Source: an uncultured Bacteroidales bacterium (GTDB lineage: Bacteria > Bacteroidota > Bacteroidia > Bacteroidales > Muribaculaceae). From it: a DNA stretch of 45,288 nucleotides. A program made the position numbers and the translations under genes. Positions 430-40,705 of the stretch are shown in pieces (position 1 is the stretch's first letter; every line of letters starts with the position of its first letter). Location of the stretch: the NCBI GenBank assembly GCA_902760865.1, contig CACWID010000022.1:1-45288 (forward strand), read 5' to 3'. The notes under the pieces are model-generated. The model was not told where the DNA came from. It did no database searches and saw only the letters and a program-made list of their open reading frames with translations.

Positions 430-457
430 CACTAATCTCTAATCACTAATCTCTAAT
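430..457. repeat. Heptanucleotide tandem array, C(A/T)CTAAT x4
   Basis: Four consecutive 7-base units alternate CACTAAT and CTCTAAT with no interruption. The array sits between the mosaic repeat and the hairpin that follows the BspA-like gene. The second mosaic island ends the same way: two units (CACTGAT, CACTAAT) at 2409-2422. Confidence 0.8.
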
Positions 458-459
458 CA

Positions 460-483
460 GCGAGCGAAGCGAGTTTCGCTCGC
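460..483 (-). terminator. Hairpin directly after the BspA-like gene
   Basis: A perfect 9-base stem, GCGAGCGAA paired with TTCGCTCGC around a 6-base loop, lies one base beyond the stop codon of the - strand BspA-like gene. The position suits a transcription terminator. The sequence after the stem on the - strand has no long U-run, so intrinsic termination is an inference. A related GCGAGCGCAGCGAGC word occurs at 2425-2439. Confidence 0.5.
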
Positions 484-484
484 A

Positions 485-1657
485 TCACCAACTGCCCGAG
501 AGCAGGTAATTGATCAGTGCGGTCACGTCGCTGATGTTGATGCCTCCGCTCTGGTTGGCGTCGGCTCCATGCAGGTTGATGCCCGTGCCGTTGTGGCTGA
601 GCAGGAAGTTGATCAGGGCGGTCACGTCGTTGATTTTCACCTGGAAGTCGCCGTTCACGTCACCGCGGATAATAGCTGCGGTGAAATAGCCGGGGTTGCT
701 GGGGCCGCCGTCGATGTGGGCATAGGTCTTGTCCTGAATGTAGGCATTGTAGGTCGTGCCCTTGCCACCCACCAGGCTGGTGCAGCTCGCGAACATTGCT
801 CCTGACTGATCTACGTTCGCCGTGCTCCACCCGCTGCTAGCATAAATAGTGGTCAAATTCGTGCAGTAACAGAACATTGCCCACATGTTGGTCACATTAC
901 TAGTGTTGAAACTACTTAGGTCAAGACTTGTCAAACCAGAGCAGAAACCGAACATGTTGGACATATCGGTCACATTACTGGTGTTGAAGCTACTTAGGTC
1001 AAGACTTGTCAAACCAGAGCAGTCAGCGAACATGCTGTTCATTTTGGTCACGTTGGCCGTGTTGAAGTTGCTTAGGTCAAGGCTCGTCAAACCAGAGCAG
1101 CGTTCAAACATGTATGCCATGTTTGTCACCTTGGACGTGTTGAAGCTGCTCAAGTCAAGGCTCGTCAAACCAGAGCAGCCCTCGAACAAGCCGAACATGT
1201 CGGTCACTTTTGCGGTGTTGAAGTGGCTCAAGTCTAGGCTCGTCAAGCCAGAGCAGCCTTCGAACATGCCATACATGTTGGTCACCTCGCTGGTGTTCAG
1301 GTAGCCAATGCCCGTGATGGATTGAACGTTATTCATGTAAGCAAACCAAATGAAAGTACTCGTCGGGCGGGCGCCGGCGAACGACGGGTCAATGATCACT
1401 CTTGTCGTCGGAAGGGTCCAGGTGTCCATGTCTAATAAATCACGGTACCACCCTGGAACTTCATCATCCAGGTCGTAGGTTGTGCCCGGCCTGGATGAGC
1501 GCAGGTTGTCGTAATAGAACGTCAGCGTCGTGTTCGACGGCGTGTAGCAGGCATAGGCCTCGACGGCCTTCGTGGCCAGTGACGAGAGCATCACCAGCAT
1601 CAGCGTCATGAGCCACCGGCCCATGGATCGCGAGAAAAATCTTGTAGTTTGTTCCAT
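485..1657 (-). CDS. BspA-like surface protein with DUF285 repeats and C-terminal dockerin-like module
   Basis: A secreted protein of 390 residues, probably surface-exposed. It starts with a signal peptide (hydrophobic WLMTLMLVMLSSLATKAVEA within residues 15-34). A central array of 26-residue repeats with the core LTSLDLSSFNTSNVTNM and an invariant CSGL start is the BspA-type leucine-rich (DUF285) repeat. About five full copies and degenerate ends are seen, at roughly residues 115-305. The last 60 residues carry two calcium-loop-like segments, GDVNGDFQVKINDV and GADANQSGGINISDV, each followed by TALINYLL, which is a dockerin type I-like pair. Proteins of this family in Bacteroidales are implicated in adhesion; the ligand here cannot be predicted. 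The repeats are also nearly identical at DNA level (78-base period), so copy number may vary. A second Met at residue 12 is an alternative start. Confidence 0.85.
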   Translation of the reverse strand: MEQTTRFFSRSMGRWLMTLMLVMLSSLATKAVEAYACYTPSNTTLTFYYDNLRSSRPGTTYDLDDEVPGWYRDLLDMDTWTLPTTRVIIDPSFAGARPTSTFIWFAYMNNVQSITGIGYLNTSEVTNMYGMFEGCSGLTSLDLSHFNTAKVTDMFGLFEGCSGLTSLDLSSFNTSKVTNMAYMFERCSGLTSLDLSNFNTANVTKMNSMFADCSGLTSLDLSSFNTSNVTDMSNMFGFCSGLTSLDLSSFNTSNVTNMWAMFCYCTNLTTIYASSGWSTANVDQSGAMFASCTSLVGGKGTTYNAYIQDKTYAHIDGGPSNPGYFTAAIIRGDVNGDFQVKINDVTALINFLLSHNGTGINLHGADANQSGGINISDVTALINYLLSGSW

Positions 1658-1696
1658 AATACATCAATTTTATTTTTGCAGTTAGTAATTACGCCA

Positions 1697-1704
1697 CAAA
1701 TTTA
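1697..1704 (-). promoter_or_regulatory. Possible -7 element of the BspA-like gene
   Basis: On the - strand TAAATTTG matches the Bacteroidetes -7 consensus TAnnTTTG about 40 bases upstream of the start codon at 1657. No good TTTG element lies 19-21 bases further upstream, so the call rests on one element. Confidence 0.4.
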
Positions 1705-1739
1705 GTAAAAAGTTTTTAAACTTTAGACATTAAATACCA

Positions 1740-2422
1740 AATTTTAGACTTTAGACGGCATCCGCACTGTAGGGCCTCGCCTTGGCGTGGCCAATCCTCA
1801 CGCTAAGGCGCTAAGCCGCTAAGAACTAAAAAGAAAACAATAATTACAATAATTACAAGGCCATCCGGACTGCAACGGAATAATTAACGACAACTGAAAC
1901 AACTGACATCCGCACTTTATTCTAATTGCTGTCTGCGAATTTTACGGATTAAACAGATTAAGCATCCGCACTCTTTTACCTCACGCTAAGGCGCAAAGTC
2001 GCTAAGGATATAGGGGGCTGTCGCACTCGGTTTATTTTGCGTGAATTGATCATGAATTAATTAATGATAATTCGCGATAATTCACGTAAAAAAAGCACAA
2101 AACATCCGCGCTCCATTAGACAGGAACGCGGATGCTATCTTAAAAACAACTCTTAGCGCCTTAGCGCCTTAGCGTGGGGCCAGGAACGCGGATGCTAATT
2201 AGTGAAATTTGAAATAATAAGAACGCGGATGCCAATTAGTTTAATTCGCGTAATTCGTAGTTTTTAATAATTAGCGTCTTAGCGTGGGACCAGGAACGCG
2301 GATGCTAATTAGTTCAATTCGCGTAATTCGTAGTTTTTAATTAAGAACGCGGATGCCCTCAGAAAAATCAGACTAATCTGTTGTTTTTAATTAAGAACGA
2401 GGATGCCTCACTGATCACTAAT
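1740..2422. repeat. Large intergenic island of GCGGATGC mosaic repeats
   Basis: The gap between the BspA-like gene and clpC has no credible gene. It contains the second copy of the 76-197 block (about 1847-1970) and six GCGGATGC words: GGAACGCGGATGC at 2123-2135, 2183-2195 and 2293-2305, GAACGCGGATGC at 2221-2232 and 2345-2356, and a variant GAACGAGGATGC at 2395-2406. AATTCGCGTAATTCGTAGTTTTT tails follow some of them, and TTAGCGCCTTAGCGTGG-type words lie between. It ends in two heptads at 2409-2422. The pattern is modular: the same short cassettes are shuffled in different orders. Confidence 0.8.
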
Positions 2423-2515
2423 CGGCGAGCGCAGCGAGCACAATGGCACGGTCTTTGCTAATTGTTGGGGTGACATCAACTGATATTGACAAATAAGAAC
2501 ATAAGAATTATAGCA

Positions 2516-4714
2516 ATGGTAAACAACCAGCACGACAATCAACAACAGTACTGGAGACAGGATATTACGCTGCCTAAGGCAGGTGCCGACTTCCCCGACG
2601 AGGACGACGAGGAGGACGACGATTTGCCCGGTGGCGGTGGTGGCATGTCGGGCGAGGGAGAGGGCGACAATCCCTCCTACCGCGAGACACGACAGCGACG
2701 AAATGTCAGTCGGGGTGACAATTCTTCCACTCCTGTCATCGACAAGTATGGCAAGGACATCACCCGCGAGGCCGCCGAAGGCCGTCTGGACCCCGTCGTG
2801 GGCCGCGAGACCGAAATCGAACGCCTGGCACAGATCCTGAGCCGGCGCAAGAAGAATAACCCCGTGATGATCGGCGAACCCGGTGTGGGCAAGAGCGCCA
2901 TCATCGAGGGTCTGGCCAAGCGCATCGTCGAGCGCAAGGTGGCACGCACCCTGCTCGACAAGCGCATCGTCTCGCTCGACATGGCAGCCATCGTGGCCGG
3001 CACCAAGTACCGCGGCCAGTTTGAGGAGCGTCTCAAGGCCGTCATCGACGAGGTGAGCCAGAACAAGAACGTCATCATGTTCATCGACGAGATCCACAAC
3101 ATCGTGGGCGCCGGCAATGCCAGCGGCTCGATGGATGCCGCCAACCTGCTCAAGCCGGCACTGGCACGCGGCGAGTTCCAATGTATCGGTGCCACCACCC
3201 TTGATGAGTACCGCAAGAGCATCGAGAAGGACGGTGCCCTGGAGCGCCGTTTCCAGAAGGTCCTGGTCGAGCCCACCACGCCCGAGCAGACGCTCGAGAT
3301 CCTGCACCACATCAAGGACATGTACGAGAAGCACCACGGCGTGAGCTACACCGACGAGGCGCTGCGCGCCTGTGTCACCCTGACCGACCGCTACATCAGC
3401 GACCGCTTCTTCCCCGACAAGGCCATCGACGCCATGGACGAGGCGGGATCGCGCGTACATATTACCAAGGTCGATACCCCCAAGGAGATCGAGGACCTGG
3501 AGAAACTCATCGCCGAGGCACAGAAGAACAAGTTTGAAGCCGTCCAGGCACAGAACTTCGAGAGCGCTGCCAGCTACCGCGACCAGCAGGAAAAGCTCAA
3601 GCATGAACTGGCCATCGCCAAGGAGAAATGGGAAGCTGAACTCGACAGCCGCCGCGTGACGGTCAACGAGGGACATATCGCCGAGGTCGTCGCCATGATG
3701 ACCGGCGTGCCCACCCAGCGCATCGCCCAGAGCGAGGGCATCCGCCTGCTGGGCATGACCGATGAGCTGAAGAAGCAGGTCATCGGCCAGGACGAGGCCA
3801 TCGACAAGATTGCCCGCAGCATCCGCCGCAACCGTGCCGGCCTGCGCGACCCCAAGCGCCCCATCGGCTCATTCATGTTCCTGGGACCGACGGGCGTCGG
3901 CAAGACCCTGCTCGCCAAGAAGCTCGCCCAGTTCCTGTTCAACAGCGACGAGGCCCTGATCCGTGTGGACATGAGCGAATATATGGAGAAGTTCAACGTT
4001 TCCCGCCTCGTCGGTGCGCCTCCGGGCTACGTGGGCTATGAGGAGGGCGGACAGCTGACCGAGAAGGTGCGCCGCCACCCCTACAGCGTGGTGCTGCTCG
4101 ACGAGATCGAGAAGGCCCATCCCGACGTGTTCAACATGCTGTTGCAGGTGCTCGACGAGGGTAACCTCACCGACGGTCTGGGACGCAAGGTGGACTTCAA
4201 GAACACGATCATCATTATGACCTCGAACATCGGCACCAGGGAACTGAAGGACTTCGGCGCAGGCGTCGGCTTCAACACCAGCGAGCTGACCAAGGAGCGC
4301 AGTGACTCGGTCATCCGCAAGGCCCTCAACCGCCAGTTCTCGCCCGAGTTCCTGAACCGTGTGGACGACATCGTGACCTTCGGAGCCCTCAACCACGACT
4401 GCATCCTCAAGATTGTCGATATCGAGCTCGCCTCGTTCTACAAGCGCATCGAGGAGAACGGCCTGAAGCTGGAAATCACCGATGCCGCCAAGAATCTGGT
4501 TGCCGACCGTGGCTTTGACATCCAGTACGGTGCCCGCCCGCTGAAGCGCGCCATCCAGAGCGAAATCGAGGACCCCCTGAGCGAGATGCTTCTGCGCGAG
4601 GAGGCCAAGACCGGCGACACCATCGTCATCGACGCCCAGGATGGCAAGATTGTCACCAACATCAAGAAAGCCCGCGCTTCAAAGACAAAGACGGAAACGG
4701 ATACTACGGAATAA
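2516..4714 (+). CDS. clpC: ClpC-type AAA+ unfoldase without the usual N-domain
   Basis: A Hsp100/Clp ATPase of 732 residues that would unfold proteins for ClpP. D1 has Walker A GEPGVGKS near residue 120 and Walker [10 protein letters not shown] near 187. A UVR-like coiled segment lies near 325-363 ([20 protein letters not shown]). D2 has Walker A GPTGVGKT near 457 and Walker [12 protein letters not shown] near 523. The VGF tripeptide in [10 protein letters not shown] sits where ClpC carries its ClpP-binding loop. Usual ClpC proteins are 810-850 residues and begin with a paired Clp-N repeat; here there are only about 75 residues, acidic then glycine-rich ([19 protein letters not shown]). The start at 2516 is preferred over an upstream TTG at 2486, which would only add an AT-encoded tail. 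It may be a dedicated paralog rather than the sole ClpC. Confidence 0.88.
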
Positions 4715-4748
4715 ACATAAATTACCGAGCCTTACACCCAACTACAGA

Positions 4749-4784
4749 TTACGCGAATTATACGAGTTTGTATAATTCGCGTAA
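4749..4784. terminator. Perfect 15-base palindrome between convergent clpC and tamL
   Basis: TTACGCGAATTATAC pairs perfectly with GTATAATTCGCGTAA around the 6-base loop GAGTTT. It lies between two convergent genes, so it could end transcription from both sides. Its right arm runs into GTAATTCGTTGTCTTTAAAA, the tail word of the mosaic repeat family, so it may instead be part of that repeat. Confidence 0.5.
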
Positions 4785-4800
4785 TTCGTTGTCTTTAAAA

Positions 4801-4885
4801 GGAATGCGGATGCCTAATTAGTGAAATTTGAAATAATAAGAACGCGGATGCTAATTAGTTTAATTCGCGTAATTCGTAGTTTTCT
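4801..4885. repeat. Third island of the GCGGATGC mosaic repeat
   Basis: GGAATGCGGATGC at 4801-4813 and GAACGCGGATGC at 4840-4851 are joined by the AATTAGTGAAATTTGAA spacer and followed by TTCGCGTAATTCGTAGTTTT, the same order as the 87-base unit near the left end of the window. The element ends just before the stop codon of tamL. Confidence 0.85.
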
Positions 4886-4893
4886 ATTAAGGG

Positions 4894-12886: not shown

Positions 12887-12928
12887 CTGACAACTGAAAA
12901 CTGAAAACTGAAAACTGAAAACTAAAAC
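12887..12928. repeat. Heptanucleotide tandem array, CTGAAAA x6, touching a start codon
   Basis: Six 7-base units: CTGACAA, four CTGAAAA and CTAAAAC. The array begins 15 bases after the stop codon of the folate gene and its last base is adjacent to the TTG start codon of the M16 protease, leaving no room for a separate ribosome-binding site. Confidence 0.85.
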
Positions 12929-15727
12929 TTGAGCAGACGAGCTATCATATTGATCATCGCGGTGATGGCGGTGCTGACCGCCGTTGCACGGACCGAACAG
13001 CAGCTGCCGGTGGACCCCGACCTGAGAATCGGACGCCTTGATAACGGATTGACCTACTACATCCGTCACAACAGCCAGCCGCAAGGCCGCGCCGAGTTCT
13101 GGCTGGTTCAGAACACGGGCTCGCTTGTCGAGGAGGATGACGAACGTGGCTTGGCCCACTTCATCGAGCACATCGCGTGGCAAGGAACGCGCAATTTCCC
13201 CGGCATCATGATGGTAGAGGTGTTGCAGAAGGCCGGTGTGTCCTATGGCGGCGACATCAACGCATCGACGGGCTTTGACGACACGCGGTTCCAAATTTCT
13301 AACGTCCCCACCGAGCGCACCGAACTGCTCGACACCGTCCTGCTGATGATGCGGGACCTGATGACGGAACTCAACTTTGACGACCGTGCCATCGAGGAGG
13401 AACGACGCGTCATCGAGGAGGAGTGGCGCATGCATGCCGACCAGATGATGCGCCTCTATGAGAACACCCTGCCCATACTGTTCTCCGGCAGCCGTTATGC
13501 CAGCCGCATCCCCATCGGCGACATGTCGGTTGTGCGCAACGCGACGCGCCCCCAGCTCATCAGTTTCTATCACCGCTGGTATTGTCCACAGCGACAGGCT
13601 GTTGTCATTGTGGGGGATTTTGATGCCGAGCGCATGGAGAAGATGGTCAAGCGCACCTTCGGCACCATTAGCCGGCGTGATAACCCCGACACCGACCCGC
13701 ATCTTGGCGACATCCCCGACCACAACGGAGTGACATACGCCCTGAATACCGACCCCGAGGCGACAGGCACCATGCTCTACCTGATGTTTGAACACAGCCA
13801 GGTGCCTAAGGAACTACGAGGAACGGCTGTTTACCTGCGACACAACGTGTTGACGATGCTCGAGGAGGAACTCTTGAGCAAGCGCATCGACGAGATGACC
13901 AGGATTCAAGGCACACCTTTCAGCTATGGCACGGCCCAGGACAGACGCATGCTCATCACACGCACCCGCGACGCCCTGGCTCTTGCCGCCATGGTCAATG
14001 AGGGACGCTCTCTCGAGGCCCTCGACACGTTGATCACCCTGGCCGCCCGCGTGCAGCAACATGGCTTCACCCCTGCGGAACTGGAGCGTGCCAAGCGCAA
14101 CGTGCGCGCCCAGTTTACCGACTGGCAGTCCGAAGCCGACAAACGCACCAGCCGGGAATATGCCGACGAATACATGGACCACTACGTCAACGGCGGCTAT
14201 ATACCCGGTGTCGTGGCAGAGTCACGGATGCTCATCGAGGAGCTGGACCGAGTCACGCTCGACGAAGTCAACTCCCGCATGCGGCAGGTCATCGGCAAGG
14301 ACAACGTCAGCGTCCTCATCTCTGGACCGCAGACGATGAGCGGCCCCAGCCGCTACCCCACCTCGCGCGACGTGATAGCCCACTTCAACCGCATCATCAA
14401 CACGCCCCAGTCGCCCTATGTCGATATCGTGGCGAGCAATGAGCTACTGGCGTCAGAACCCGCCAGCGGCATCATCATCAACGAGGTGCATGACCCGGCA
14501 ACGGGCATCACCACGATGACCCTGCACAACGGCGCCACCGTCAGGCTGAAGCCGACGACCTTCAAGAACAACGAGGTCCTGTTCAATGCCTTCAGCCTGG
14601 GCGGAGAATGGGCTTTTGGCGATACTGCCGACGTCAACGTTCGGCTCATGGACCAGGTCATCGAGGAGTGCGCCCTGGGCGGGCACACCATCAATCAGCT
14701 GAACAGGATGATGAGCGGCCGTCAGCTGGGCATATCGTTCATACTCAACGATGCCAACGAACAGCTGAGCGGGGGATGCCAGAGCGCTGACCTCGAGTCG
14801 CTGTTGCAGCTGTGCTACCTCTATTTTACTGACGTCACGCTCGACCAGGAGGCCTTCGACGTCCTCAAGACAGGCATCCGCTCACAACTGTCCCAGTCAA
14901 GCAACAACCCCAAGAAAATCTATAGCGACTCCATCGGCAGCACCATCTACATGGGCAATCCCATGTATCGCAGCATCAAGCCCGAGGATGTTGACCGGCT
15001 GGACGGCGAGCGCGTGCTGGAGCTCTACCGGCAACGCGTGGCCAATGCCGGTGATTATACCTTCTCGATAGTGGGCGCGTTCACCATCGATGAGGTGAGA
15101 CCACTCATCTGCAAGTACCTTGCCTCGCTGCCCGACAATGGTGTCCGCGAGACGGGCTATGGCGGCTACCGCCCTGCCATGGCCACAGGCGAGGTAGATA
15201 ACTTCTTCGAAGTCCCCATGCTGGGTCCCAAGACGTCAGTCTATGTCTCTATCATGGGCGACAAGCGATATAGCTATGACGACGAATTCATGATGGACCT
15301 CGTGGGCGAGTCGGTGGGGACCGCACTCTTGACACTGCTGCGCCACGAGAAGCACGGCACCTATGATGTCGGGGCCGACGGCAGCTTGTCGATCTATCAG
15401 AACCGATGGATGGTGAACTATGAGTTTGAGACCAGCACAGCCGACAGGGACAGCATGCTGATATATGCCGACTACGCCGTGAACACCATCTTCTACTATG
15501 GTGTGTCCGAAGAGCTGTTCAAAATGATGAAGGAGAGTGTCAACCTGCAGCATCAGAGTGCCTTACAAACCAACGGCTACTGGATGCACGCGCTGCAGAT
15601 GCGTGCGCTGGGAGTCGATATCATCAGCGGCTTTGACCGCATCTACCCCACCCTGACACTGGATCTGCTCAACAACTACATCCAGGCCCTCAGGCCACAC
15701 ACGAAGCTCCGCATCGTCATGAACTGA
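12929..15727 (+). CDS. Exported M16-family zinc metalloprotease (PqqL-like)
   Basis: A pitrilysin-type protease of 932 residues with the duplicated M16 architecture. The N-terminal half is catalytic: the inverted zinc motif HFIEH lies at residues 77-81, with the distal glutamate about 76 residues later in AIEEERRVIEEEW (near 155-165). The C-terminal half (from about 500) lacks HxxEH and should be the inactive clam-shell partner. A signal peptide (RRAIILIIAVMAVLTAVA) points to export. The start is TTG: the first in-frame ATG (12965) would cut the signal peptide. The upstream leader consists almost wholly of the heptad array. Substrates are unknown; family members degrade peptides and small proteins. 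Confidence 0.9.
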   Translation: MSRRAIILIIAVMAVLTAVARTEQQLPVDPDLRIGRLDNGLTYYIRHNSQPQGRAEFWLVQNTGSLVEEDDERGLAHFIEHIAWQGTRNFPGIMMVEVLQKAGVSYGGDINASTGFDDTRFQISNVPTERTELLDTVLLMMRDLMTELNFDDRAIEEERRVIEEEWRMHADQMMRLYENTLPILFSGSRYASRIPIGDMSVVRNATRPQLISFYHRWYCPQRQAVVIVGDFDAERMEKMVKRTFGTISRRDNPDTDPHLGDIPDHNGVTYALNTDPEATGTMLYLMFEHSQVPKELRGTAVYLRHNVLTMLEEELLSKRIDEMTRIQGTPFSYGTAQDRRMLITRTRDALALAAMVNEGRSLEALDTLITLAARVQQHGFTPAELERAKRNVRAQFTDWQSEADKRTSREYADEYMDHYVNGGYIPGVVAESRMLIEELDRVTLDEVNSRMRQVIGKDNVSVLISGPQTMSGPSRYPTSRDVIAHFNRIINTPQSPYVDIVASNELLASEPASGIIINEVHDPATGITTMTLHNGATVRLKPTTFKNNEVLFNAFSLGGEWAFGDTADVNVRLMDQVIEECALGGHTINQLNRMMSGRQLGISFILNDANEQLSGGCQSADLESLLQLCYLYFTDVTLDQEAFDVLKTGIRSQLSQSSNNPKKIYSDSIGSTIYMGNPMYRSIKPEDVDRLDGERVLELYRQRVANAGDYTFSIVGAFTIDEVRPLICKYLASLPDNGVRETGYGGYRPAMATGEVDNFFEVPMLGPKTSVYVSIMGDKRYSYDDEFMMDLVGESVGTALLTLLRHEKHGTYDVGADGSLSIYQNRWMVNYEFETSTADRDSMLIYADYAVNTIFYYGVSEELFKMMKESVNLQHQSALQTNGYWMHALQMRALGVDIISGFDRIYPTLTLDLLNNYIQALRPHTKLRIVMN

Positions 15728-19207: not shown

Positions 19208-20452
19208 ATGGCTAAAGTAAAACCGTTCCGTGGCGTGAGACCGCCGAAAGAGTATGTAGAAAAAGTAGCTTCCAAGCCCTATGACGTCCTCTCGAGTGAG
19301 GAGGCACGTGCCGAGGCTGGCGACAACGAGATGAGCCTGTACCACATCATTAAGCCCGAAATCGACTTCGAACCCGGCACGGGCGAGCACGAGCCCAAGG
19401 TCTATGACAAGGCCGTCGAGAACTTCAAGAAGTTCCAGGACAAGGGCTGGCTGGTCCAGGATACCCAGGACTGCTACTACATCTATGCACAGACCATGGA
19501 TGGCCGCACACAATACGGATTTGTGGTAGGCGCCAGCGTTGAGGACTACCTCACGGGCCGCATCAAGAAGCATGAGCTCACCCGCCGCGAGAAGGAGGCC
19601 GACCGCATGCACCACATCGAAATCAACAACGCCAACATCGAGCCGGTGTTCCTGGCTTTCCCCGACAACCGCATCCTCGAGGACATCATCGACCGCACCG
19701 CACAGACCGCTCCCGAATATGACTTCGTCAGCGAGGACGGTATCGGCCACACCCTGTGGGTCATCAAGGACAAGGAGACCATCGACACCATCACCCGCGA
19801 GTTCGGCGAGATTCCTTATCTCTACATTGCCGACGGACACCACCGCACCGCTGCCGCTGCCCACGTGGGCGAGGAGAAGGCCAAGGCTGACCCCAACCAC
19901 AACGGCACCGAGGAGTACAACTACCTGCTGGCTGTCTGCTTCCCCCAGTCTCACCTCAAGGTGATGGACTACAACCGCGTGGTTGTTGACCTGAACGGCA
20001 ACACCGAGGAGCAGTTCCTCGAGAAGCTGGGCGAGAAGTTCATCGTCGAGGAGAAGGGCACCGAAATCTACAAGCCCGCCAAGCTCCACAACTTCTCACT
20101 CTACCTGGGTGGCAAGTGGTACTCACTGACCGCCAAGGAGGGCACCTATGACGACAACGATCCCATCGGCGTGCTCGACGTGACCATCTCGAGTGACTAC
20201 ATCCTGCGCGACATCCTGGGCATCACCGACCTGCGCACCGACAAGCGCATCGACTTCGTCGGCGGCATCCGCGGCCTGGGCGAGCTCAAGCGCCGTGTTG
20301 ACAGTGGCGAGATGAAGATGGCCCTGGCCCTCTACCCCGTGACCATGAAGCAGATCATCGACATCGCCGACAGCGGCAAGATCATGCCTCCCAAGGCCAC
20401 CTGGTTCGAGCCCAAACTGCGCTCGGGTCTCATCATCCACAAGCTGGACTAA
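19208..20452 (+). CDS. DUF1015 family protein
   Basis: Conserved protein of 414 residues belonging to DUF1015 (COG4198), found in many anaerobes and with no settled function. It starts AKVKPFRGVRPP, the family's usual opening, and carries the hallmark YIADGHHRTAAAAH near residues 205-220, whose histidines suggest a hydrolase- or kinase-like active site. No signal peptide or membrane segment, so cytosolic. It lies after the Fur gene and is closed by a strong intrinsic terminator, so it is at the end of its transcription unit. In other bacteria this family often neighbours serine biosynthesis genes (serA/serC); none are seen here. Confidence 0.88.
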   Translation: MAKVKPFRGVRPPKEYVEKVASKPYDVLSSEEARAEAGDNEMSLYHIIKPEIDFEPGTGEHEPKVYDKAVENFKKFQDKGWLVQDTQDCYYIYAQTMDGRTQYGFVVGASVEDYLTGRIKKHELTRREKEADRMHHIEINNANIEPVFLAFPDNRILEDIIDRTAQTAPEYDFVSEDGIGHTLWVIKDKETIDTITREFGEIPYLYIADGHHRTAAAAHVGEEKAKADPNHNGTEEYNYLLAVCFPQSHLKVMDYNRVVVDLNGNTEEQFLEKLGEKFIVEEKGTEIYKPAKLHNFSLYLGGKWYSLTAKEGTYDDNDPIGVLDVTISSDYILRDILGITDLRTDKRIDFVGGIRGLGELKRRVDSGEMKMALALYPVTMKQIIDIADSGKIMPPKATWFEPKLRSGLIIHKLD

Positions 20453-20640: not shown

Positions 20641-21759
20641 ATGAAATTCAACGTCCAAAGTAAATTATTGCTCAGTCGCTTGAATGCCGTGAGCAAAGTG
20701 GTTAGCTCCAAGAATGCCTATGCTATTCTTGACAACTTCCTGTTTGAACTGCAAAGCGACCGCATCGTCGTGACCGGCAGCGATATGGAGACACGCCTGA
20801 CGACCAACATCGAGGTCCAGAACGTAGAAGGCGCAGGCAAGTTCGCCCTCGACGTGAAGCGCACCATCAATTCGCTCAAGGAGCTGCCCGACACGGGACT
20901 GACCTTTGAGATCAACGACGAGACGCTGGCCGTTAAAGTGACCTATGTCAACGGTTTCTATGATGCGATGGCCCTGGGTGGCGACGAATACCCCGAGAAG
21001 GCTGCCAGCACCAACGAGGTGCAACACTTCGCACTGCCCGCCAAGAGCATTGCCGCCGGTATCGGCCATACGTTGTTTGCTGTAGGCAACGACGACATGC
21101 ACCCGCAGTTCACCGGCATCTACTGGGACATCAAGCCCGACATGATCGTCTATGTGGCCAGCGATTCCCACAAGCTGGTGCGTTACCGCCAGACCAACAT
21201 CAAGCCCGACTTTGAGCGCTCGTTCATCCTTCCCGCCAAGCCGGCCGGCATCCTTGCCAACATCATTGATGCCAATAGCGAGGAGAACATCAACATCACC
21301 GTCGATGAGAGCAGCGCCACCTTTGAGAACGCTGACTTCCAGCTCTCGTGCCGCTTTATCAACGGCCGTTACCCCAACTATAACTCGGTCATCCCCGAGG
21401 ACAATCCTTACACCATGGCCGTTGACCGCCTGACGCTGCTCAACGCCGTGCGCCGTGTCGCCGTGTTTGCCAACGTCGGCGGACTGGTACGTCTGGACCT
21501 GCATCCCACCCAGGTCGTTCTCACCGCTCAGGATGTTGACCACTCGACCGCTGCCGAGGAGACCATCGCCTGTGAATACAACGGCGAGCCGATGAACATC
21601 GGTTTCAAGAGCGCCGATGTCATCGACGTGGTGAACAACATCGACTGCGAGGGCGTCTTCCTCAAGTTGCTCGACCCCGCCCGTGCAGGTGTGTTTGTCC
21701 CCAGTGAGCAGAAGGCCGGCGAGGACCTCATCGTCCTGCAGATGCCCATGATGATCTAG
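20641..21759 (+). CDS. dnaN: DNA polymerase III beta subunit (sliding clamp)
   Basis: Processivity clamp of 372 residues that encircles DNA as a dimer and tethers the polymerase and partner proteins. The three-domain repeat is intact and full-length. Family features include KFNVQSKLLLSRLNAVSKVVSSKNAYAILDN at the start (positions 2-31), VKRTINSLKELPDTGL, the central SCRFINGRYPNYNSVIP, and the end VPSEQKAGEDLIVLQMPMMI in place of the usual ...PMR(L/M). It heads a run of + strand genes. dnaA and recF are not adjacent, so this need not be near the replication origin. Confidence 0.96.
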   Translation: MKFNVQSKLLLSRLNAVSKVVSSKNAYAILDNFLFELQSDRIVVTGSDMETRLTTNIEVQNVEGAGKFALDVKRTINSLKELPDTGLTFEINDETLAVKVTYVNGFYDAMALGGDEYPEKAASTNEVQHFALPAKSIAAGIGHTLFAVGNDDMHPQFTGIYWDIKPDMIVYVASDSHKLVRYRQTNIKPDFERSFILPAKPAGILANIIDANSEENINITVDESSATFENADFQLSCRFINGRYPNYNSVIPEDNPYTMAVDRLTLLNAVRRVAVFANVGGLVRLDLHPTQVVLTAQDVDHSTAAEETIACEYNGEPMNIGFKSADVIDVVNNIDCEGVFLKLLDPARAGVFVPSEQKAGEDLIVLQMPMMI

Positions 21760-21765
21760 TCAATA

Positions 21766-21800
21766 TTAGTCATTAGTCATTAGTCGCTAGTCTCTAGTCA
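21766..21800. repeat. Heptanucleotide tandem array, TTAGTCA x5
   Basis: Five 7-base units: TTAGTCA, TTAGTCA, TTAGTCG, CTAGTCT, CTAGTCA. A further CTAGTCA at 21756-21762 contains the dnaN stop codon TAG, three bases out of phase with the rest. Confidence 0.85.
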
Positions 21801-21827: not shown

Positions 21828-21862
21828 CCTAAAGCCTAAAACCTAGAGCCTAAAACCTAATA
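21828..21862. repeat. Heptanucleotide tandem array, CCTAAAA x5
   Basis: Five 7-base units: CCTAAAG, CCTAAAA, CCTAGAG, CCTAAAA, CCTAATA. It ends four bases before the ATG of the exonuclease gene. It is the second heptad array in the same 107-base spacer, with a different word. Confidence 0.85.
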
Positions 21863-22674: not shown

Positions 22675-22717
22675 CTGAAAACTGAGAACTGAAAACTGAA
22701 AAACTAAAAACTGACAA
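22675..22717. repeat. Heptanucleotide tandem array, CTGAAAA x6
   Basis: Units CTGAAAA, CTGAGAA, CTGAAAA, an 8-base CTGAAAAA, CTAAAAA and CTGACAA, followed by CTAA and the ATG of coaBC. The word is the same as in the array before the M16 protease 10 kb away. Confidence 0.8.
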
Positions 22718-22721
22718 CTAA

Positions 22722-33283: not shown

Positions 33284-33349
33284 CTCTAGACCATCTAGTA
33301 ACTCTAGAAAATCTAGAAGAACTCCTAACCCCTCACTCCTAACTCCTAA
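33284..33349. repeat. Two adjacent short tandem arrays: 9-base CTAG units, then heptad CTCCTAA x4
   Basis: Positions 33284-33319 read as four 9-base units sharing CTAG (CTCTAGACC, ATCTAGTAA, CTCTAGAAA, ATCTAGAAG). Positions 33322-33349 are four 7-base units (CTCCTAA, CCCCTCA, CTCCTAA, CTCCTAA). They fill most of the 99-base spacer between the - strand genes nadC and DAHP synthase. Confidence 0.75.
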
Positions 33350-33355
33350 CTAAAA

Positions 33356-34204
33356 TCAGCACGCCTTAAAGCTCATGTCAAGCGACTTGATCGAGTGGGT
33401 CAAGGCACCTACCGAGATGTAGTCCACGCCGCACTCGCCATAGGCGCGCAACGTGTCGATGGTAATGCCGCCGCTCGACTCGGTCTCCACCCTGCCGTTG
33501 ATGATTTCCACGGCCTTGCGGGTATTTTCAACTGAGAAATTGTCGAGCATCACGCGGTCCACGCCACCATGGTCGAGCACCTGCTGCAACTCGTCGAAGT
33601 TACGCACCTCGATCTCGATCTTCAGGTCCTTGCCGTTGTCACGGCACCACTGGTGGGCTTTCTCGATGGCAGGCACGATGCCGCCGGCAAAGTCCACATG
33701 ATTGTCCTTGAGCAGGATCATGTCGAACAGGCCGATGCGGTGGTTGCAACCGCCACCAATCTTGACAGCCTCTTTCTCCAGCATGCGCATGCCGGGCGTC
33801 GTCTTGCGGGTGTCGAGAACGCGGGTCTTGAGGCCTTCCAGGCACTTGGCATAGCGTGCCGTGGTCGTTGCCACACCGCTCATGCGCTGCATGATGTTGA
33901 GCATCAGGCGCTCGGTCTGCAACAGCGAGCGCACCTTACCGGTCACGACAAAGGCGATATCGCCAGGCTTGACATGAGCACCGTCACCGATCATCACCTC
34001 CATCTGCAGCTCGGGGTCAAACTTCTCAAACACGCGGCGCGCAATCTCCACGCCGGCCAGAATGCCCTCTTCCTTCACAATCAGGCGCTGCCGTCCCATC
34101 TCTTCGGCAGGAATGCAGCACAAGGTCGTCGCGTCACCGTCACCGATGTCCTCGGCAAATGCCAGGTCGATCAACTCGTCAATCAGTTCTTCTCTTGTTT
34201 TCAT
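33356..34204 (-). CDS. nadC: Nicotinate-nucleotide pyrophosphorylase (quinolinate phosphoribosyltransferase)
   Basis: Cytosolic NAD biosynthesis enzyme of 282 residues: quinolinate + PRPP to nicotinate mononucleotide, CO2 and PPi. The N-terminal open-sandwich part (EDIGDGDATTLCCIP) precedes the barrel with RLMLNIMQRMSGVATTTARY, DTRKTTPGMRMLEKEAVKIGG, NHRIGLFDMILLKDNH and IEIEVRNFDEL. The C-terminal glycine-rich phosphate site is SSGGITIDTLRAYGECGVDYIS. Length is normal. nadA and nadB are not nearby. It has its own promoter, overlapping that of rlmH. Confidence 0.95.
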   Translation of the reverse strand: MKTREELIDELIDLAFAEDIGDGDATTLCCIPAEEMGRQRLIVKEEGILAGVEIARRVFEKFDPELQMEVMIGDGAHVKPGDIAFVVTGKVRSLLQTERLMLNIMQRMSGVATTTARYAKCLEGLKTRVLDTRKTTPGMRMLEKEAVKIGGGCNHRIGLFDMILLKDNHVDFAGGIVPAIEKAHQWCRDNGKDLKIEIEVRNFDELQQVLDHGGVDRVMLDNFSVENTRKAVEIINGRVETESSGGITIDTLRAYGECGVDYISVGALTHSIKSLDMSFKAC

Positions 34205-34272: not shown

Positions 34273-34302
34273 TGCCAAGAAACATAAAAACATTATCAGA
34301 AA

Positions 34303-34776: not shown

Positions 34777-34810
34777 GGTTTTTAGATAAACGGTAAAAGG
34801 AGATTTTGTG

Positions 34811-35938: not shown

Positions 35939-35948
35939 AAGTTAAATA

Positions 35949-35980
35949 TTTGCTCAAATCAAATAATGTGAGTACTTTTG
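35949..35980 (+). promoter_or_regulatory. Promoter of the first outer-membrane paralog
   Basis: TTTG at 35949-35952, a 20-base spacer and TACTTTTG at 35973-35980 match the Bacteroidetes promoter exactly. The ATG is 40 bases downstream of the -7 element. Confidence 0.75.
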
Positions 35981-36020
35981 CACCCGAATTTTACTAAACC
36001 ATCAAATAATTAGCATTATA

Positions 36021-36794: not shown

Positions 36795-36821
36795 TCATCG
36801 AACGGAGATAACTGACATTAC

Positions 36822-36863
36822 AGACGGAAATTCCCGAAAATGATGGAATTTCCGTCTTTTTTT
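36822..36863 (+). terminator. Intrinsic terminator after paralog 1
   Basis: AGACGGAAATTCC (36822-36834) pairs perfectly with GGAATTTCCGTCT (36845-36857) and is followed by a T-run. It separates the first outer-membrane paralog from the ECF sigma operon. Confidence 0.92.
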
Positions 36864-36922
36864 CATTTTTTTGTTACAAATGACATATCTCTGCGTTTAT
36901 TGAATAGAAACGATGATTAATC

Positions 36923-37426
36923 ATGAAGCAGACTGACCGCATCACTAATGCATTCACAGCCTTGAGGGAGCAGATGCTCTCGCTGGCAGAGCGCATCACG
37001 GGCAACCGTGACGATGCCGCCGATGCGGTACAGGACGCCTTCGTGAAACTGTGGCAACAGCGGGGACGGTATGAGAGCACTAGTCATGCCCAGGGTGCCG
37101 GGATGATGACCGTGCGCACCACCAGCATCGACCTGGCGCGGCGCAACAGCCACCGATCGGATGTCCCCGTCGAGCAAGCCGTTGACACCGTCGAGGAAGT
37201 GACCGATAACGAGCGCAGCTTAGCCTACCAGCAAGTGCGTGCCATCATCGACAACGACCTGTCGGCCAACCAGCGCGCCATCATCGACATGAGAGAGGTG
37301 CAGGGCATGGAGTTTGACGACATTGCCATCCGATTGGGGATGCAACCCGCCACCGTCAGAGTGGAACTGAGCCGCGCCCGCAAGCGCGTACGAGAAATTT
37401 ACCGTAACAGCAGAAAAGAGAGTTGA
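36923..37426 (+). CDS. ECF-type RNA polymerase sigma factor
   Basis: Alternative sigma factor of 167 residues with the two ECF domains. Sigma-2 includes ITGNRDDAADAVQDAFVKLW (about residues 25-44). Sigma-4 includes LSANQRAIIDMREVQGMEFDDIA with helix-turn-helix IRLGMQPATVRVELSRARKR (about 112-160). The spacing and length are normal. The next gene, three bases downstream, has the layout of an anti-sigma protein, so the pair likely forms a membrane-signalled regulon. The targets are unknown; the two flanking outer-membrane paralogs are the obvious candidates. No Bacteroidetes housekeeping promoter was found upstream, which fits autoregulation but does not show it. Confidence 0.9.
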   Translation: MKQTDRITNAFTALREQMLSLAERITGNRDDAADAVQDAFVKLWQQRGRYESTSHAQGAGMMTVRTTSIDLARRNSHRSDVPVEQAVDTVEEVTDNERSLAYQQVRAIIDNDLSANQRAIIDMREVQGMEFDDIAIRLGMQPATVRVELSRARKRVREIYRNSRKES

Positions 37427-37429
37427 ATC

Positions 37430-37891
37430 ATGAACGATTACCAGCACATCAACAGTCAAGAGGAGTTAGAACAACTCATCGACCGATACTTCAACGGCAT
37501 GACGTCAGTCGAGGAAGAGGACGCCTTGAGGTCCTGCCTTGCCCGTTGCCCGTGGAGCAGCCAGGCCATCGACGAGGCGCGGATGGTAATGGGCTACTTT
37601 GCCACCCACAGCGACCGGCACAGACGGCAGACCGCCAAAAGCAGGCGCCAACTGGTCGCAGGCATCGCGGCCTCGATAGCCATCATACTGGCTGTTGGTG
37701 GGTATGCCTTGTGGCATCAGCAACAACCAGGCGACGTGTGCATTGCCTACGTGAACGGGCAGGTCGTGCAGGACAATGACAAGGTGATGGCGCTGGTTGC
37801 CGACGACTTGAGCAAGATGGACAATGCCGCCAATGCCATGACCGACCAACTCTCCAGCCTGGGTGAAGCCTTAGAACTTGACAACGAATAA
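37430..37891 (+). CDS. Putative anti-sigma factor, single-pass membrane protein
   Basis: Protein of 153 residues with a soluble N-terminal part (1-70), one membrane helix (LVAGIAASIAIILAVGGYAL, about residues 75-94) and a short outer part. The N-terminal motif ELEQLIDRYFNGMTSVEEEDALRSCL resembles the start of Bacteroidetes anti-sigma proteins (DRYF-G-TS-EEE-LR). It lacks the FecR-like periplasmic domain, so the signal input is probably different from that of TonB-linked systems. The gene follows the ECF sigma factor by three bases, and the next gene starts within 16 bases. Confidence 0.75.
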   Translation: MNDYQHINSQEELEQLIDRYFNGMTSVEEEDALRSCLARCPWSSQAIDEARMVMGYFATHSDRHRRQTAKSRRQLVAGIAASIAIILAVGGYALWHQQQPGDVCIAYVNGQVVQDNDKVMALVADDLSKMDNAANAMTDQLSSLGEALELDNE

Positions 37892-37907
37892 AAAAATGAC
37901 AACCGAT

Positions 37908-38351
37908 ATGAAACGAATCACTATCATCCTGACCTGCCTGTTGACCACCATGGCAGCCATGGCCCAGACAGGCTTGAACATCAACCGCCTGTTTGACGGA
38001 CGATACAAAAAAGCGGCTGGCGCCACCGAGATCATCGTCACCGGAGTTCAGGCCCGCGAAATCGGATTGACCGTCTATCACAGCCTGAGCGTGACAGACA
38101 AGAACCAGGCCGAACTTGTCGAGGCAATGGTTGTAAAAGACGGTGCGCAGGCTGTCGACAAAGAAGTGGAATACCGCAACGGGCAACTCTATTACGGCTT
38201 CTACACGATGAAAAAGGGTAAACGCGACAACCGTTACATCTTCTACTTGAATCAGAACCTGGCCCGCAAGTCTCCCAAAAACATCGTCACCCTTATCTAT
38301 ATGGAAGGGTTTGCCAGCCAAGAAGAAATCAAGAAACTCATCCGTAAATAA
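37908..38351 (+). CDS. Small exported protein in the ECF sigma operon (DUF6108-like)
   Basis: Protein of 147 residues with a signal peptide (KRITIILTCLLTTMAAMAQ). The mature part is short and beta-rich: NINRLFDGRYKKAAGATEIIVTG, LTVYHSLSV, KEVEYRNGQLYYGFYTM and NIVTLIYMEGFASQEEIKKLI. It resembles a family found next to ECF sigma/anti-sigma pairs in Bacteroides that I believe is catalogued as DUF6108; that name is uncertain. An ATG at 37896 is an alternative start; 37908 gives the better signal peptide. It may be a periplasmic partner or output of the sigma system. Confidence 0.75.
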   Translation: MKRITIILTCLLTTMAAMAQTGLNINRLFDGRYKKAAGATEIIVTGVQAREIGLTVYHSLSVTDKNQAELVEAMVVKDGAQAVDKEVEYRNGQLYYGFYTMKKGKRDNRYIFYLNQNLARKSPKNIVTLIYMEGFASQEEIKKLIRK

Positions 38352-38374
38352 TCACTAAATAAAAACATAAGGAA

Positions 38375-39232
38375 ATGAAAAAGATTGTACTTCTATTCGC
38401 AACAATGCTTGCCATGGCGCAAGCACAGGCCACGGCCCCCGATACAGTGACCGTCATCCAGCAGCCCAGCAAGGTCATCATCACCGAGACGCCGACAGGC
38501 TCACAGGTAAAGGTGATCGGATCAAAGGAAGAAGAGGACTATAGTTACACCTATGAGATGCAACACTCGGGAAACGACACGGTCCACACTACACAGTCCA
38601 CCGACTGGGAGCTGAATCTGCCGTTCATGAAGAGCAGCAACAAGGAGTACCACTGGAGCATCGTTTGTTCTGGATTATACTTCGGAGCCGGACTCGGCAC
38701 TTCCTATGACTTGATCAACAACTGCTTCAACTGGGGTATCCTCAACTTTGCCAGCCTCAATTACAACACCCTGCATGGACAGCAATTCTCAATTGGCGTC
38801 GGCTATGACAACAAGCGTTTCTCGCTCAAGCGCCCCAATTGCTTTGTCATGGACGAAGCGACCAACATTGTGGGCATCGATTCTTATCCCGAGGGAACCG
38901 TTGACCGATCATCAGTCCTCTCGGTCAGGGCCATCCAATTCCCGCTCCAATTCCAGCAGTTTATCGGGAAAAATTTCCACATCACTCTGGGCGGAACCAT
39001 GAACTGGAACGTCTATGCCAAGTGCAACACCCATTATAAGGTCAACAAGACCCACCACGACGTATCTTATCGCGGAATCAAGCAGAACAAGTTGACTTTT
39101 GACGTCTATGGCGCTTTGTCCTACAATCGCTTTGGAGTTTACTGCCGCTACAGTCCCTGTGAAGTGTTCAAGAAGGGCTATGGTCCCGAAATCAAGAACA
39201 CTTGGATGCTGGGCGTTATCATTGGTTTATAA
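38375..39232 (+). CDS. Putative outer-membrane beta-barrel protein, paralog 2
   Basis: Exported protein of 285 residues with a signal peptide (KKIVLLFATMLAMAQAQA). It is paralogous to the 36021-36794 protein over about the last 190 residues, with the same strand order and end (CRYSPCEVFKKGYGPEIKNTW). The N-terminal 85 residues differ and include a Thr/Val-rich section (VTVIQQPSKVIITETPTGSQVKVIG). It is the last gene of the sigma-factor operon, 23 bases after the small exported protein, so unlike paralog 1 it should depend on the sigma operon's transcription. Confidence 0.75.
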   Translation: MKKIVLLFATMLAMAQAQATAPDTVTVIQQPSKVIITETPTGSQVKVIGSKEEEDYSYTYEMQHSGNDTVHTTQSTDWELNLPFMKSSNKEYHWSIVCSGLYFGAGLGTSYDLINNCFNWGILNFASLNYNTLHGQQFSIGVGYDNKRFSLKRPNCFVMDEATNIVGIDSYPEGTVDRSSVLSVRAIQFPLQFQQFIGKNFHITLGGTMNWNVYAKCNTHYKVNKTHHDVSYRGIKQNKLTFDVYGALSYNRFGVYCRYSPCEVFKKGYGPEIKNTWMLGVIIGL

Positions 39233-39253
39233 AGAACATTTCATCCTCTTGTA

Positions 39254-39275
39254 GAGACGCAAAATCTTGCGTCTC
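39254..39275. repeat. GAGACGC hairpin element
   Basis: GAGACGCAA pairs with TTGCGTCTC around AATC. It is a single-hairpin relative of the double element at 15783-15863 and lies just downstream of the outer-membrane paralog 2, where it could also act as a terminator for that operon. Confidence 0.7.
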
Positions 39276-39304
39276 AAGGGGGCACATCAAGTCAAACAAA
39301 ACGA

Positions 39305-39340
39305 TAAGAGTTAGGAGAGAACCACCCCTCCTAACTCTTA
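39305..39340. repeat. Perfect 13-base inverted repeat beside a heptad array
   Basis: TAAGAGTTAGGAG pairs with CTCCTAACTCTTA around a 10-base loop. It lies between convergent genes and can act as a bidirectional terminator. The right arm joins the heptad array without a gap, and its CTCCTAA word is the heptad used at 33322-33349. Confidence 0.7.
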
Positions 39341-39389
39341 CTGTTAACTATTAACTATTAACTATTAACTATTAACTATTAACTGTTAA
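39341..39389. repeat. Heptanucleotide tandem array, CTATTAA x7, touching a stop codon
   Basis: Seven uninterrupted 7-base units: CTGTTAA, five CTATTAA, CTGTTAA. The next base starts the stop codon of the - strand MBL gene (CTA = TAG), which continues the array's phase. It is the longest and most regular heptad array in the window. Confidence 0.9.
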
Positions 39390-40031
39390 CTAAATAAACG
39401 GGTTGCACCGTTTCTCGTCGGCAACGGTGGTTGTGGGGCCATGGCCCGAGGCGATGACGGTCTCGTCGGGCAAGGGAAGTATCTTCTCGCGGATGCTGAT
39501 GATGAGTTGCGCCATGTCGCCGCCCCACAGGTCGGTACGGCCCACGCTGCCGTTGAAAATGGTGTCGCCCGAGATGAGCAGGCCGCTCCCTGCCAGGTAG
39601 AAGGCCAGGCCGCCAGGGCTGTGGCCAGGCACATGCAGCACCTGGATGGTATCCTCGCCGAGGGGGATGATGTCGCCGTCGGCGAGTTCGCGGTCGATGG
39701 TCAACGGTTCGCACTCCACTTTAAGCTGAAATTCCTGAATCTGTTTCGGCAGTTCCAGTCCCAACTGCGCATCCTGAGCGCTGGCACACACGTCGGCCCC
39801 GGTCTTGTCGGCGAGCCAGCGGGTTCCGGTAATGTGGTCGATGTGCATGTGGGTCAACAGGATGTGGGTCACATTCAGTTCTTGTCCTTCTATAAACTTA
39901 GCCACCATCTCGCGCTCGGCCTCACGCATCATGCCGGGGTCAACGACGACGGCCTCACGCGTGGCCTCGTCCCACAGGATATACATGTTCTCGCCAAACG
40001 GGTTGACGGTCATCATTGTCGCATTAATCAT
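39390..40031 (-). CDS. Metallo-beta-lactamase fold hydrolase (glyoxalase II-like)
   Basis: Cytosolic zinc hydrolase of 213 residues. The metal motif LLTHMHIDHITG gives His61, His63, Asp65 and His66. A further ligand His lies in VLHVPGHSPGGLAFY, the bridging Asp in LLISGDTIFN and the last His in IASGHGPTTTV. This is the short MBL form common in bacteria and often annotated hydroxyacylglutathione hydrolase-like; a thioester or S-acyl substrate is possible but not shown. Its ATG overlaps the stop of rsmG (ATGA), so translation is coupled. Confidence 0.88.
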   Translation of the reverse strand: MINATMMTVNPFGENMYILWDEATREAVVVDPGMMREAEREMVAKFIEGQELNVTHILLTHMHIDHITGTRWLADKTGADVCASAQDAQLGLELPKQIQEFQLKVECEPLTIDRELADGDIIPLGEDTIQVLHVPGHSPGGLAFYLAGSGLLISGDTIFNGSVGRTDLWGGDMAQLIISIREKILPLPDETVIASGHGPTTTVADEKRCNPFI

Positions 40032-40648
40032 AACGGCAAATACAATATCTTTTTGGTCTTGAAAAATTCTTCCTTAAAATAATTGGACAACTCGTCGATG
40101 AGCACCTGGTTCTTGAACGGCTGCACCTCGCCCGTCAGGTCACCGCCCTTGAGGCAGATGAGTCCGTTGGGCACGGCATTGCGGTCCTCGCTGTCGATAA
40201 AGCGGCGAACCAGGGGCACCATATCGCCCAAGTCCATCACCGCGCGACTCACCACAAAGTCAAACTTGCCTTTCACCTCCTTGACATCACCGTGCTGGAA
40301 GGTCACGTTCGTCAGGCCGATGCGCTCGGCGATGTCCTGTGCCACCTTGAGTTTCTTGCCGATGCGGTCCACCAGATGGAACGACACCTCAGGGTAATAG
40401 ATGGCCAGCGGGATGCCGGGCAGTCCCCCACCCGTCCCCAGGTCCATCACCCGCGTGCCGGGCGTAAACTTGACGAACTTGACCAGTCCCAGCGAGTGCA
40501 GGATGTGATTCACCTCCAGATTGTCTATGTCCTTACGGGAAATGACGTTGATCTTGGCATTCCACTCGGGGTACAACGTCTCGAGTTGTAAAAACTGCTC
40601 ACGCTGCAACTCGCTCAACTCCGGGAAATATTTCAGTATCTCTTGCAT
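40028..40648 (-). CDS. rsmG: 16S rRNA (guanine527-N7)-methyltransferase RsmG
   Basis: Cytosolic methyltransferase of 206 residues, once called GidB, acting on G527 of 16S rRNA. The SAM site is VMDLGTGGGLPGIPLAI; the N-terminal NVISRKDIDNLEVNHILHSL and the later FDFVVSRAVMDL are family hallmarks. Loss of this enzyme gives low-level streptomycin resistance in other bacteria. It forms a two-gene unit with the MBL hydrolase. Confidence 0.95.
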   Translation of the reverse strand: MQEILKYFPELSELQREQFLQLETLYPEWNAKINVISRKDIDNLEVNHILHSLGLVKFVKFTPGTRVMDLGTGGGLPGIPLAIYYPEVSFHLVDRIGKKLKVAQDIAERIGLTNVTFQHGDVKEVKGKFDFVVSRAVMDLGDMVPLVRRFIDSEDRNAVPNGLICLKGGDLTGEVQPFKNQVLIDELSNYFKEEFFKTKKILYLPL

Positions 40649-40663
40649 TCAATCACTTTTTAC

Positions 40664-40705
40664 CTGTCAACTATTAACTATTCACTGTTAACTATTCACT
40701 GTTAA
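40664..40705. repeat. Heptanucleotide tandem array, CT(A/G)TT(A/C)A x6, touching a stop codon
   Basis: Six 7-base units: CTGTCAA, CTATTAA, CTATTCA, CTGTTAA, CTATTCA, CTGTTAA. It ends at 40705; 40706 starts the stop codon of the DUF3298 lipoprotein (CTA = TAG), again in phase. The other end is 15 bases upstream of the rsmG start, so it fills the spacer between two - strand genes. Confidence 0.88.

Follow-up and report, generated by a model that had tools for sequence, protein, structure and literature searches.

What process leaves tandem repeats with a unit of seven bases, spelled in different words, in the gaps between the genes of one bacterial genome? The question is raised by a 45,288-nucleotide stretch of an uncultured Bacteroidales bacterium (Muribaculaceae; contig CACWID010000022.1 of assembly GCA_902760865.1), referred to below as the window, in which a preliminary description had noted nine heptanucleotide arrays and likened them to the STRR sequences (short tandemly repeated repetitive heptanucleotides) of cyanobacteria. 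The informative feature of these arrays, missed by that description, is their outward polarity: close to a gene, the strand that leaves the gene end reads (NNNTTAG)n (or CAG), arrays behind a stop codon having the TTAG form and arrays before a start codon the CTAA/CTGA form. With a probability of roughly 55%, these STRR-type repeats represent polar, mirror-ordered intergenic insertions that grow by a slippage-type process.

Heptanucleotide arrays between genes

The source genome comprises 3.35 Mb in 61 contigs, the window being contig C22. It was sampled with the window and 40 further stretches (834,874 bases, about one quarter of the genome), and with a smaller set of the window and 20 stretches (434,874 bases) for the statistics of lag-7 runs and shuffles. 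Genes were predicted with simple, hexamer-trained models of our own, and both the reference words and the thresholds for arrays were chosen on the same data that they describe. In the window, Tandem Repeats Finder (TRF; score 30) reports period 7 at eight of the nine noted sites; the ninth, 2409-2422, a two-unit repeat containing one mismatch, is missed, which reduces the claim of nine exact arrays to eight. All nine stretches are located between genes, as had been claimed. The spans of the eight TRF arrays are those of Table 1, except that the one from 21828 ends at 21860. Two of them, 39332-39392 and 40669-40714, extend a few bases into the adjoining genes, and the remaining open reading frames (ORFs) that overlap some array sites are antisense, in another frame or the result of extended starts.

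At lag 7, runs of 10 or more matches occur 29 times in 39 kb of noncoding DNA and once in 398 kb of coding DNA, compared to a mean of 0.1 and a maximum of 1 in 20 dinucleotide shuffles of the noncoding part. For the autocorrelation at lags 5-12 that the preliminary description had proposed, the noncoding identity is indeed highest at lag 7 (0.299), which is not the sole peak, as a smaller one is present at lag 9 (0.291). The multiples 14 and 21 give 0.290 and 0.291, respectively, and the values at lag 1 (0.313) and lag 3 (0.304) are above that of lag 7. In the 834,874 bases, period-7 arrays number 58 in noncoding and 5 in coding DNA, and arrays at multiples of seven are similarly distributed (noncoding/coding: period 14, 53/6; period 21, 33/7; period 28, 19/1). 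Of the other periods, period 9 (14/7) forms a minor second class, followed by period 8 (4/1), period 6 (0/2) and period 5 (0/0). Four consecutive CTAANNN units are matched 313 times, overlaps included, in the whole genome, versus 41 times for the backward control. Two further genomes from this phylum, G250 and G132, contain 27 and 20 matches, respectively, to the reversed control word CAATTATCAATTATCAA; these are apparently heptamer arrays of another word. Dispersed period-7 arrays are thus confirmed, with the exact seven-nucleotide tandem unit and the intergenic, genome-wide dispersal of STRR sequences. Many other, independent genomes contain arrays of this kind, which speaks against an assembly artefact.

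The view that each site has its own word does not hold, since CTGAAAA and CTATTAA each occur at two sites in the window and seven families cover nearly the whole sample, the seven reference words matching 80 of its 83 arrays at a level of at least 75%. The families vary as CTAACT(C/T), CTAATC(A/T), CTAA(A/T/C)(G/A)G, CTGA(A/C)AA, CT(A/G)TTAA, CTAAN(G/A)T and CTAGNGA. In the 33 arrays with at least two minor letters, the variable columns total 56, compared to a random mean of 89 (minimum 77 in 500 draws); the spread of variants within an array by slippage can explain part of this concentration. TAACTGA is absent from the 45 unit classes printed out of 48, and runs of three G are found in nearly no unit class, being limited to minor ACTAGGG units. 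Some words, such as CTGAAAA and CTGTTAA, resemble tRNA anticodon loops. An origin from such loops was considered and dropped, as none of 352 units matches any of 9 distinct parsed loops, a weak test in that the sampled quarter of the genome contains part of the tRNA genes.

Outward polarity and mirror order

In this genome, 70 of the 75 polar arrays with a gene on either side point outward when all distances are considered, including 7/7 in convergent gaps, 5/5 in divergent gaps, and 40/42 at 3' and 18/21 at 5' ends in tandem gaps. Within 20 nt of a gene, the unambiguous arrays are outward in 41 of 42 cases at 3' ends and in 12 of 13 at 5' ends (7 arrays have no polarity, 15 are far and 7 ambiguous), and the corresponding counts for 20 relatives are 5/5 and 1/1. 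The rule extends to 118 listed loci, obtained from a single pattern scan of species genomes with at least 118 matching stretches, titles being given for 80. These loci were chosen via the CTAA pattern, which is neutral for orientation, not for word. Nearly all of them represent other genera; at least four (L057, L079, L082 and L092) belong to the genus of the window or near it, L057 being from a genome with 91% dnaQ identity to that of the window. Their 199 noncoding arrays include 41 without polarity, 76 at more than 20 nt and 6 that are ambiguous in the 20-nt test. Within 20 nt, 71 of the 76 unambiguous arrays are outward (3' ends 45/48, 5' ends 26/28), or 74 of 82 with the ambiguous ones included. 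According to our own grouping of the record titles, the outward arrays are 25/27 in Cyanobacteria, 10/10 in Bacteroidota outside the genus of the window, 14/15 in other phyla, 19/21 in untitled loci and 3/3 in the genus of the window.

In co-directional gaps (66 arrays of this genome and 8 of relatives), all 15 arrays of the GAGTTAG family are in sense form, and their starts range from 20 nt ahead of the stop codon to 14 nt past it. Of the CTGAAAA arrays in these gaps, 11 of 13 are in forward form, 3-60 nt 5' of a start, and the two in reverse form are located 3 and 6 nt past a stop. As the rule is independent of gene strand, it is not created by antisense ORFs. The arrays stay near the gene that their TTAG strand leaves, with a mean fraction of the free gap in between of 0.12 for 32 arrays with TTAG on the top strand and of 0.15 for 39 with CTAA on the top strand; the fraction is below 0.2 in 55 of the 71 and above 0.8 in none. 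Genes abutted by an array have a TAG stop in 27 of 47 cases, compared to 88 of 580 for the others. Base-composition skew was rejected as the cause of the polarity, because array-free 3' gap ends are biased in the opposite direction (outward TTAG 38, CTAA 70); array-free 5' gap ends have a mild bias in the direction of the rule (78 versus 49).

Of 44 strict pairs of opposed arrays within one gap, drawn from four sets, 42 follow a mirror order with TTAG first and CTAA second, a count for which no gene calls are needed. The ratios are 6:0 in this genome, 2:0 in the relatives, 19:2 in the 118 listed loci and 15:0 among the listed places of one acidobacterial genome; with looser arrays included, the ratio in the genus of the window is 16:0. 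Between the majority words of paired arms, the difference is one letter in 8 of 16 pairs and two to three letters in the other 8, while 12.6% of random array pairs differ by at most one letter. Matches resembling GGCATCCGC, on either strand, are found on the 3' side of TTAG-form arrays 10 times and on the 5' side never among the 83 arrays of this genome, and 12 times versus once among 65 arrays of genus loci. Among the 229 arrays of the 118 listed loci there are none 3' of TTAG arrays and one on the other side, and from this distribution the motif looks like a feature of the genus of the window. Two-arm tandem gaps have a median folding z score of −3.5 (n = 9) and gaps with only a CTAA array of −2.8 (n = 9), compared to −0.74 (n = 26) for gaps with only a TTAG array and −0.75 (n = 60) for array-free gaps. 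RNA hairpins were rejected as the general reason for the arrays, since the TTAG-only gaps do not fold well and 24 of the 60 array-free gaps have z < −2.

Table 1. Repeat arrays of the window and short sequences beside them.
Feature	Position	Strand reading TTAG/YAG	Context
GCGGATGCC	420-428		distal flank of the 432..458 array
CTAATC(A/T) array	432..458	-	26 nt from 3' end of - strand gene 485-1624
GAGGATGCC	2399-2407		precedes the two-unit repeat 2409..2422
CACTGAT CACTAAT, two units	2409..2422	-	upstream of + strand gene 2516-4714; same polarity, not significant alone
CTGAAAA array (on +)	12887..12929	-	before start of + strand gene 12965-15727; TTTTCAG outward on - strand
(A)TTAGTC array	21765..21800	+	5 nt past TAG stop of dnaN (20641-21759); TTAG form, outward
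CCTAAAA/CCTAAAG array (on +)	21828..21862	-	just 5' of ATG (21867) of DnaQ-like exonuclease gene; opposed arm to 21765-21800, different word
CTGAAAA array (on +)	22675..22719	-	just 5' of coaBC ATG (22722)
Period-9 array TCTAGANNN, palindromic core	33285..33318	no strand	neighbour of the 33320..33351 array
CTCCTAA array (on +)	33320..33351	-	GTTAGGAG outward from 3' end of nadC (33356-34204, - strand), 4 nt off stop
CTATTAA array (on +)	39332..39392	-	touches 3' end of MBL-fold hydrolase gene (39390-40031, - strand); GTTAATA outward from the TAG stop of this gene
CT(A/G)TTAA array (on +)	40669..40714	-	3' end of - strand gene 40706-41596; before rsmG (40028-40648, - strand)

Besides the heptamers, period-9 arrays are also present at L005, L012, L020, L021, L022, L023, L028, L032 and L042, and many of them have palindromic cores (TCTAGANNN, CTCNGAGAN, CTATAGTGA). 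One long gap of the window contains the period-8 arrays CGCTAAGC (1801-1823) and CTTAGCGC (2152-2174) in the order CTAA then TTAG, the reverse of that of the heptamers. The gaps 150-460, 1660-2515 and 4715-4893 are long and built of the recurring phrases GGAACGCGGATGCCTAATTAGTG, TAATTCGCGTAATTCGTAG, TTAGCGCCTTAGCG and GCGAGCGAAGCGAG. Gene 485-1624 encodes a surface-protein-like product with PARCEL repeats (TIGR02167) and contains a 78-base tandem repeat at 883-1297. A strong hairpin, GAGTTAGGAGGGG...CTCCTAACTC, possibly a terminator, lies just past the array on the - strand (39260-39392; z −5.1 with the array).

Turnover, distribution and related repeats

In 18 orthologous gaps, compared across up to 21 species, arrays occupy 8 of the 339 gap-by-species cells, three of which belong to the window. 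In the sig-rsmG gap, arrays of several families were recognized by eye in 8 of 24 readable species; of the 16 array-free gaps 10 measure 3-9 bp and the rest 1 to about 80 bp. The 3' end of gene 19208-20452 has an array in 2 of 19 species (L200 and L202), and by eye a short array in L201 and array-like words in L203, L205, L206 and L208; the stop codon of this gene is TAG in L201 and L202, and TAA or TGA in L200 and the others. A comparison by eye of one gap in L201 and L202, which are two species, gives a difference in whole units. CTGAAAA is found 5' of coaBC in the window and in L204, and GTTAACA 3' of the MBL gene in the window, L274, L275 and L284. With the same family at the same site in several species, shared ancestry followed by loss is possible there.

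Matches to four CTAANNN units range from 0 to 412 across 61 genomes of the genus, 12 of which have none. The 80 titled loci among the matches listed come from Cyanobacteria, Bacteroidota, Planctomycetes, Acidobacteria, Verrucomicrobia, Firmicutes and others. Outside the matched arrays of the 118 listed loci, period 7 is the commonest noncoding period (62 arrays), followed by the basic period 8 (8 arrays), in genomes that had been found via a period-7 pattern. In 44.5 kb from twenty hand-picked same-class or same-order genomes, including G250 with its earlier matches to the reversed control word, noncoding arrays of period 7 number 5, three of them from one genome, and those of any other period up to 13 at most 1.

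The likeness to cyanobacterial STRR is borne out: arrays of AACTCCT and AATGACT occur in Nostoc records, in another phylum, with the same seven-nucleotide unit and intergenic location. For STRR as a whole, no description of polarity is known to us. Heptamer repeats as such had already been reported from Bacteroidetes; the preliminary description did not know of them as a system in Bacteroidales. In MacGregor (2015, PMC4679880), TAACTGA direct repeats are described from marine Beggiatoaceae, Cyanobacteria and five Bacteroidetes, including Paludibacter propionicigenes, and are reported to be gained and lost among relatives. Those of the Guaymas strain are mostly forward and just 5' of starts, and in Flexibacter litoralis 12 of 14 are forward before a start, with one reverse set just after a stop, a placement that fits the outward rule. 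They have one favoured word, unlike the seven families observed here. GGGAATC and GGGGA(C/T)T repeats of Xanthomonas and Nostoc, studied as G-quadruplex formers, are found 0-50 bp from ORFs, most of them on the non-coding strand upstream and on the coding strand downstream (PMC4692102), which is the same mirror placement that the TTAG words follow. Unlike these repeats, nearly all unit classes here are without three-G runs, so quadruplexes cannot be the general reason. Slippage with a seven-nucleotide polymerase contact has been proposed for heptanucleotide long simple sequence repeats (Mrazek et al. 2007, as cited in PMC4679880), and heptanucleotide elements are also mentioned for Geobacter (PMC2700814). 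In a literature search of titles and abstract beginnings, with older STRR papers outside its coverage, repeat polarity appeared only in PMC4679880 and PMC4692102. The mirror placement has thus been known since 2015 for one G-rich heptamer, and is here extended to many TTAG words and phyla.

Origin of the arrays

Because polarity and position are constant across word families and gene arrangements, they most likely result from DNA synthesis or insertion and not from a regulator that reads the word. In the explanation that we favour, the arrays would be small, fast-turning intergenic insertions, growing and shrinking in seven-nucleotide steps through slippage-type DNA synthesis. These would enter compact gaps between genes as polar mirror or half-mirror units, in which the strand leaving the gene is (NNNTTAG)n. 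A gap filled from both sides would then contain a TTAG array, a short centre (in the genus of the window sometimes GGCATCCGC) and a CTAA array, probably with no main regulatory role. The constant period and variable words had been taken to indicate a shared generating process or a factor that reads spacing; the former fits, whereas the latter is without support, no such factor having been found.

Several observations weigh against this explanation. Slippage from random seeds does not account for the recurrence of a few families genome-wide and across phyla, and slippage alone explains neither the restriction of variation to one or two columns per family nor the fixed orientation. The polarity rule weakens with distance, the outward arrays in the 118 listed loci decreasing to 20/26 at 21-60 nt and 20/50 beyond 60 nt. 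The 22 intergenic TAACTGA sets of Microcystis aeruginosa (6 forward and 8 reverse to a start, 8 between stops) show no clear fit (PMC4679880). Edge decay and unit divergence were searched for a growth direction and give none: neither differs between the array sides, the edges decaying to the same extent at both. No responsible enzyme was identified.

The mirror order would also suit mobile elements similar to miniature inverted-repeat transposable elements (MITEs) or repetitive extragenic palindromic (REP) sequences, with the heptamer arrays as terminal inverted repeats for a Y1 (RAYT-type) or other transposase and single arms as remnants. Such elements agree with the one-sided GGCATCCGC-like centre and the well-folding two-arm tandem gaps, and Y1_Tnp matches correlate with array matches in the 61 genomes (Spearman 0.29, p 0.02), a correlation too weak to retain the Y1 transposase as the engine. 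A mobile origin is nonetheless doubtful, because the arms often differ in word and do not form conserved terminal inverted repeats, the centre is missing on the 3' side of TTAG arrays in the 118 listed loci, and one genome (G352) has 95 array matches and no Y1_Tnp while another (G005) has 3 Y1_Tnp and no array matches. Arms of mirrored polarity whose words are independent of each other would result as well if a gap were broken, each 3' end extended by a polymerase with self-copied TTAGNNN units that run 5' to 3' away from the gene, as at telomeres, and the ends rejoined. Consistent with this outgrowth are the mirror order in the genus and the half of the pairs with arm words two to three letters apart, the like polarity in convergent, divergent and tandem gaps, and the excess of TAG stops, as if the array began within the stop codon. 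It predicts neither the likeness of paired words beyond that of random pairs nor the shared centre, and the gene-proximal and distal edges are without asymmetry. This genome is without a match to the reverse-transcriptase family RVT_1, which discards a reverse transcriptase as the engine and leaves no candidate enzyme. Given the negative growth-direction tests, outgrowth stays a minority reading that we judge improbable, and we judge equally improbable the broader view that heptamer arrays across many phyla are scars of telomere-like break extension and rejoining, and outward for that reason.

Selection on mRNA appears even less probable. Arrays before starts would then serve either as A-rich leaders free of structure or as sites bound by S1, Csp or Csr proteins, those after stops would be back-up stop codons, and function would keep the orientation. 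The divergent-gap arrays, as judged by eye, seem to lie upstream of TAnnTTTG, which we take to be a promoter-like motif, and polarity is present in these as well as in convergent gaps, which speaks against such selection. Protein binding at pre-start repeats was proposed by MacGregor (PMC4679880), and it accords with the predominantly forward CTGAAAA-family arrays before starts in tandem gaps. All seven reference words, by inspection, contain a stop codon on one strand or both, and seven is not a multiple of three; two TTGTCAG-type post-stop arrays are without a stop codon, which excludes stop back-up as the general reason. Moreover, most of the relatives that were compared lack arrays in these gaps.

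The preference of bacterial tandem repeats for seven bases is an old question. With a near-gene polarity shared by different words, gene arrangements and phyla, the answer is to be sought among processes that distinguish the interior of a gap from the gene ends. The polarity rule joins the separately described STRR, TAACTGA and GGGAATC repeats, and is testable on any set of complete genomes.

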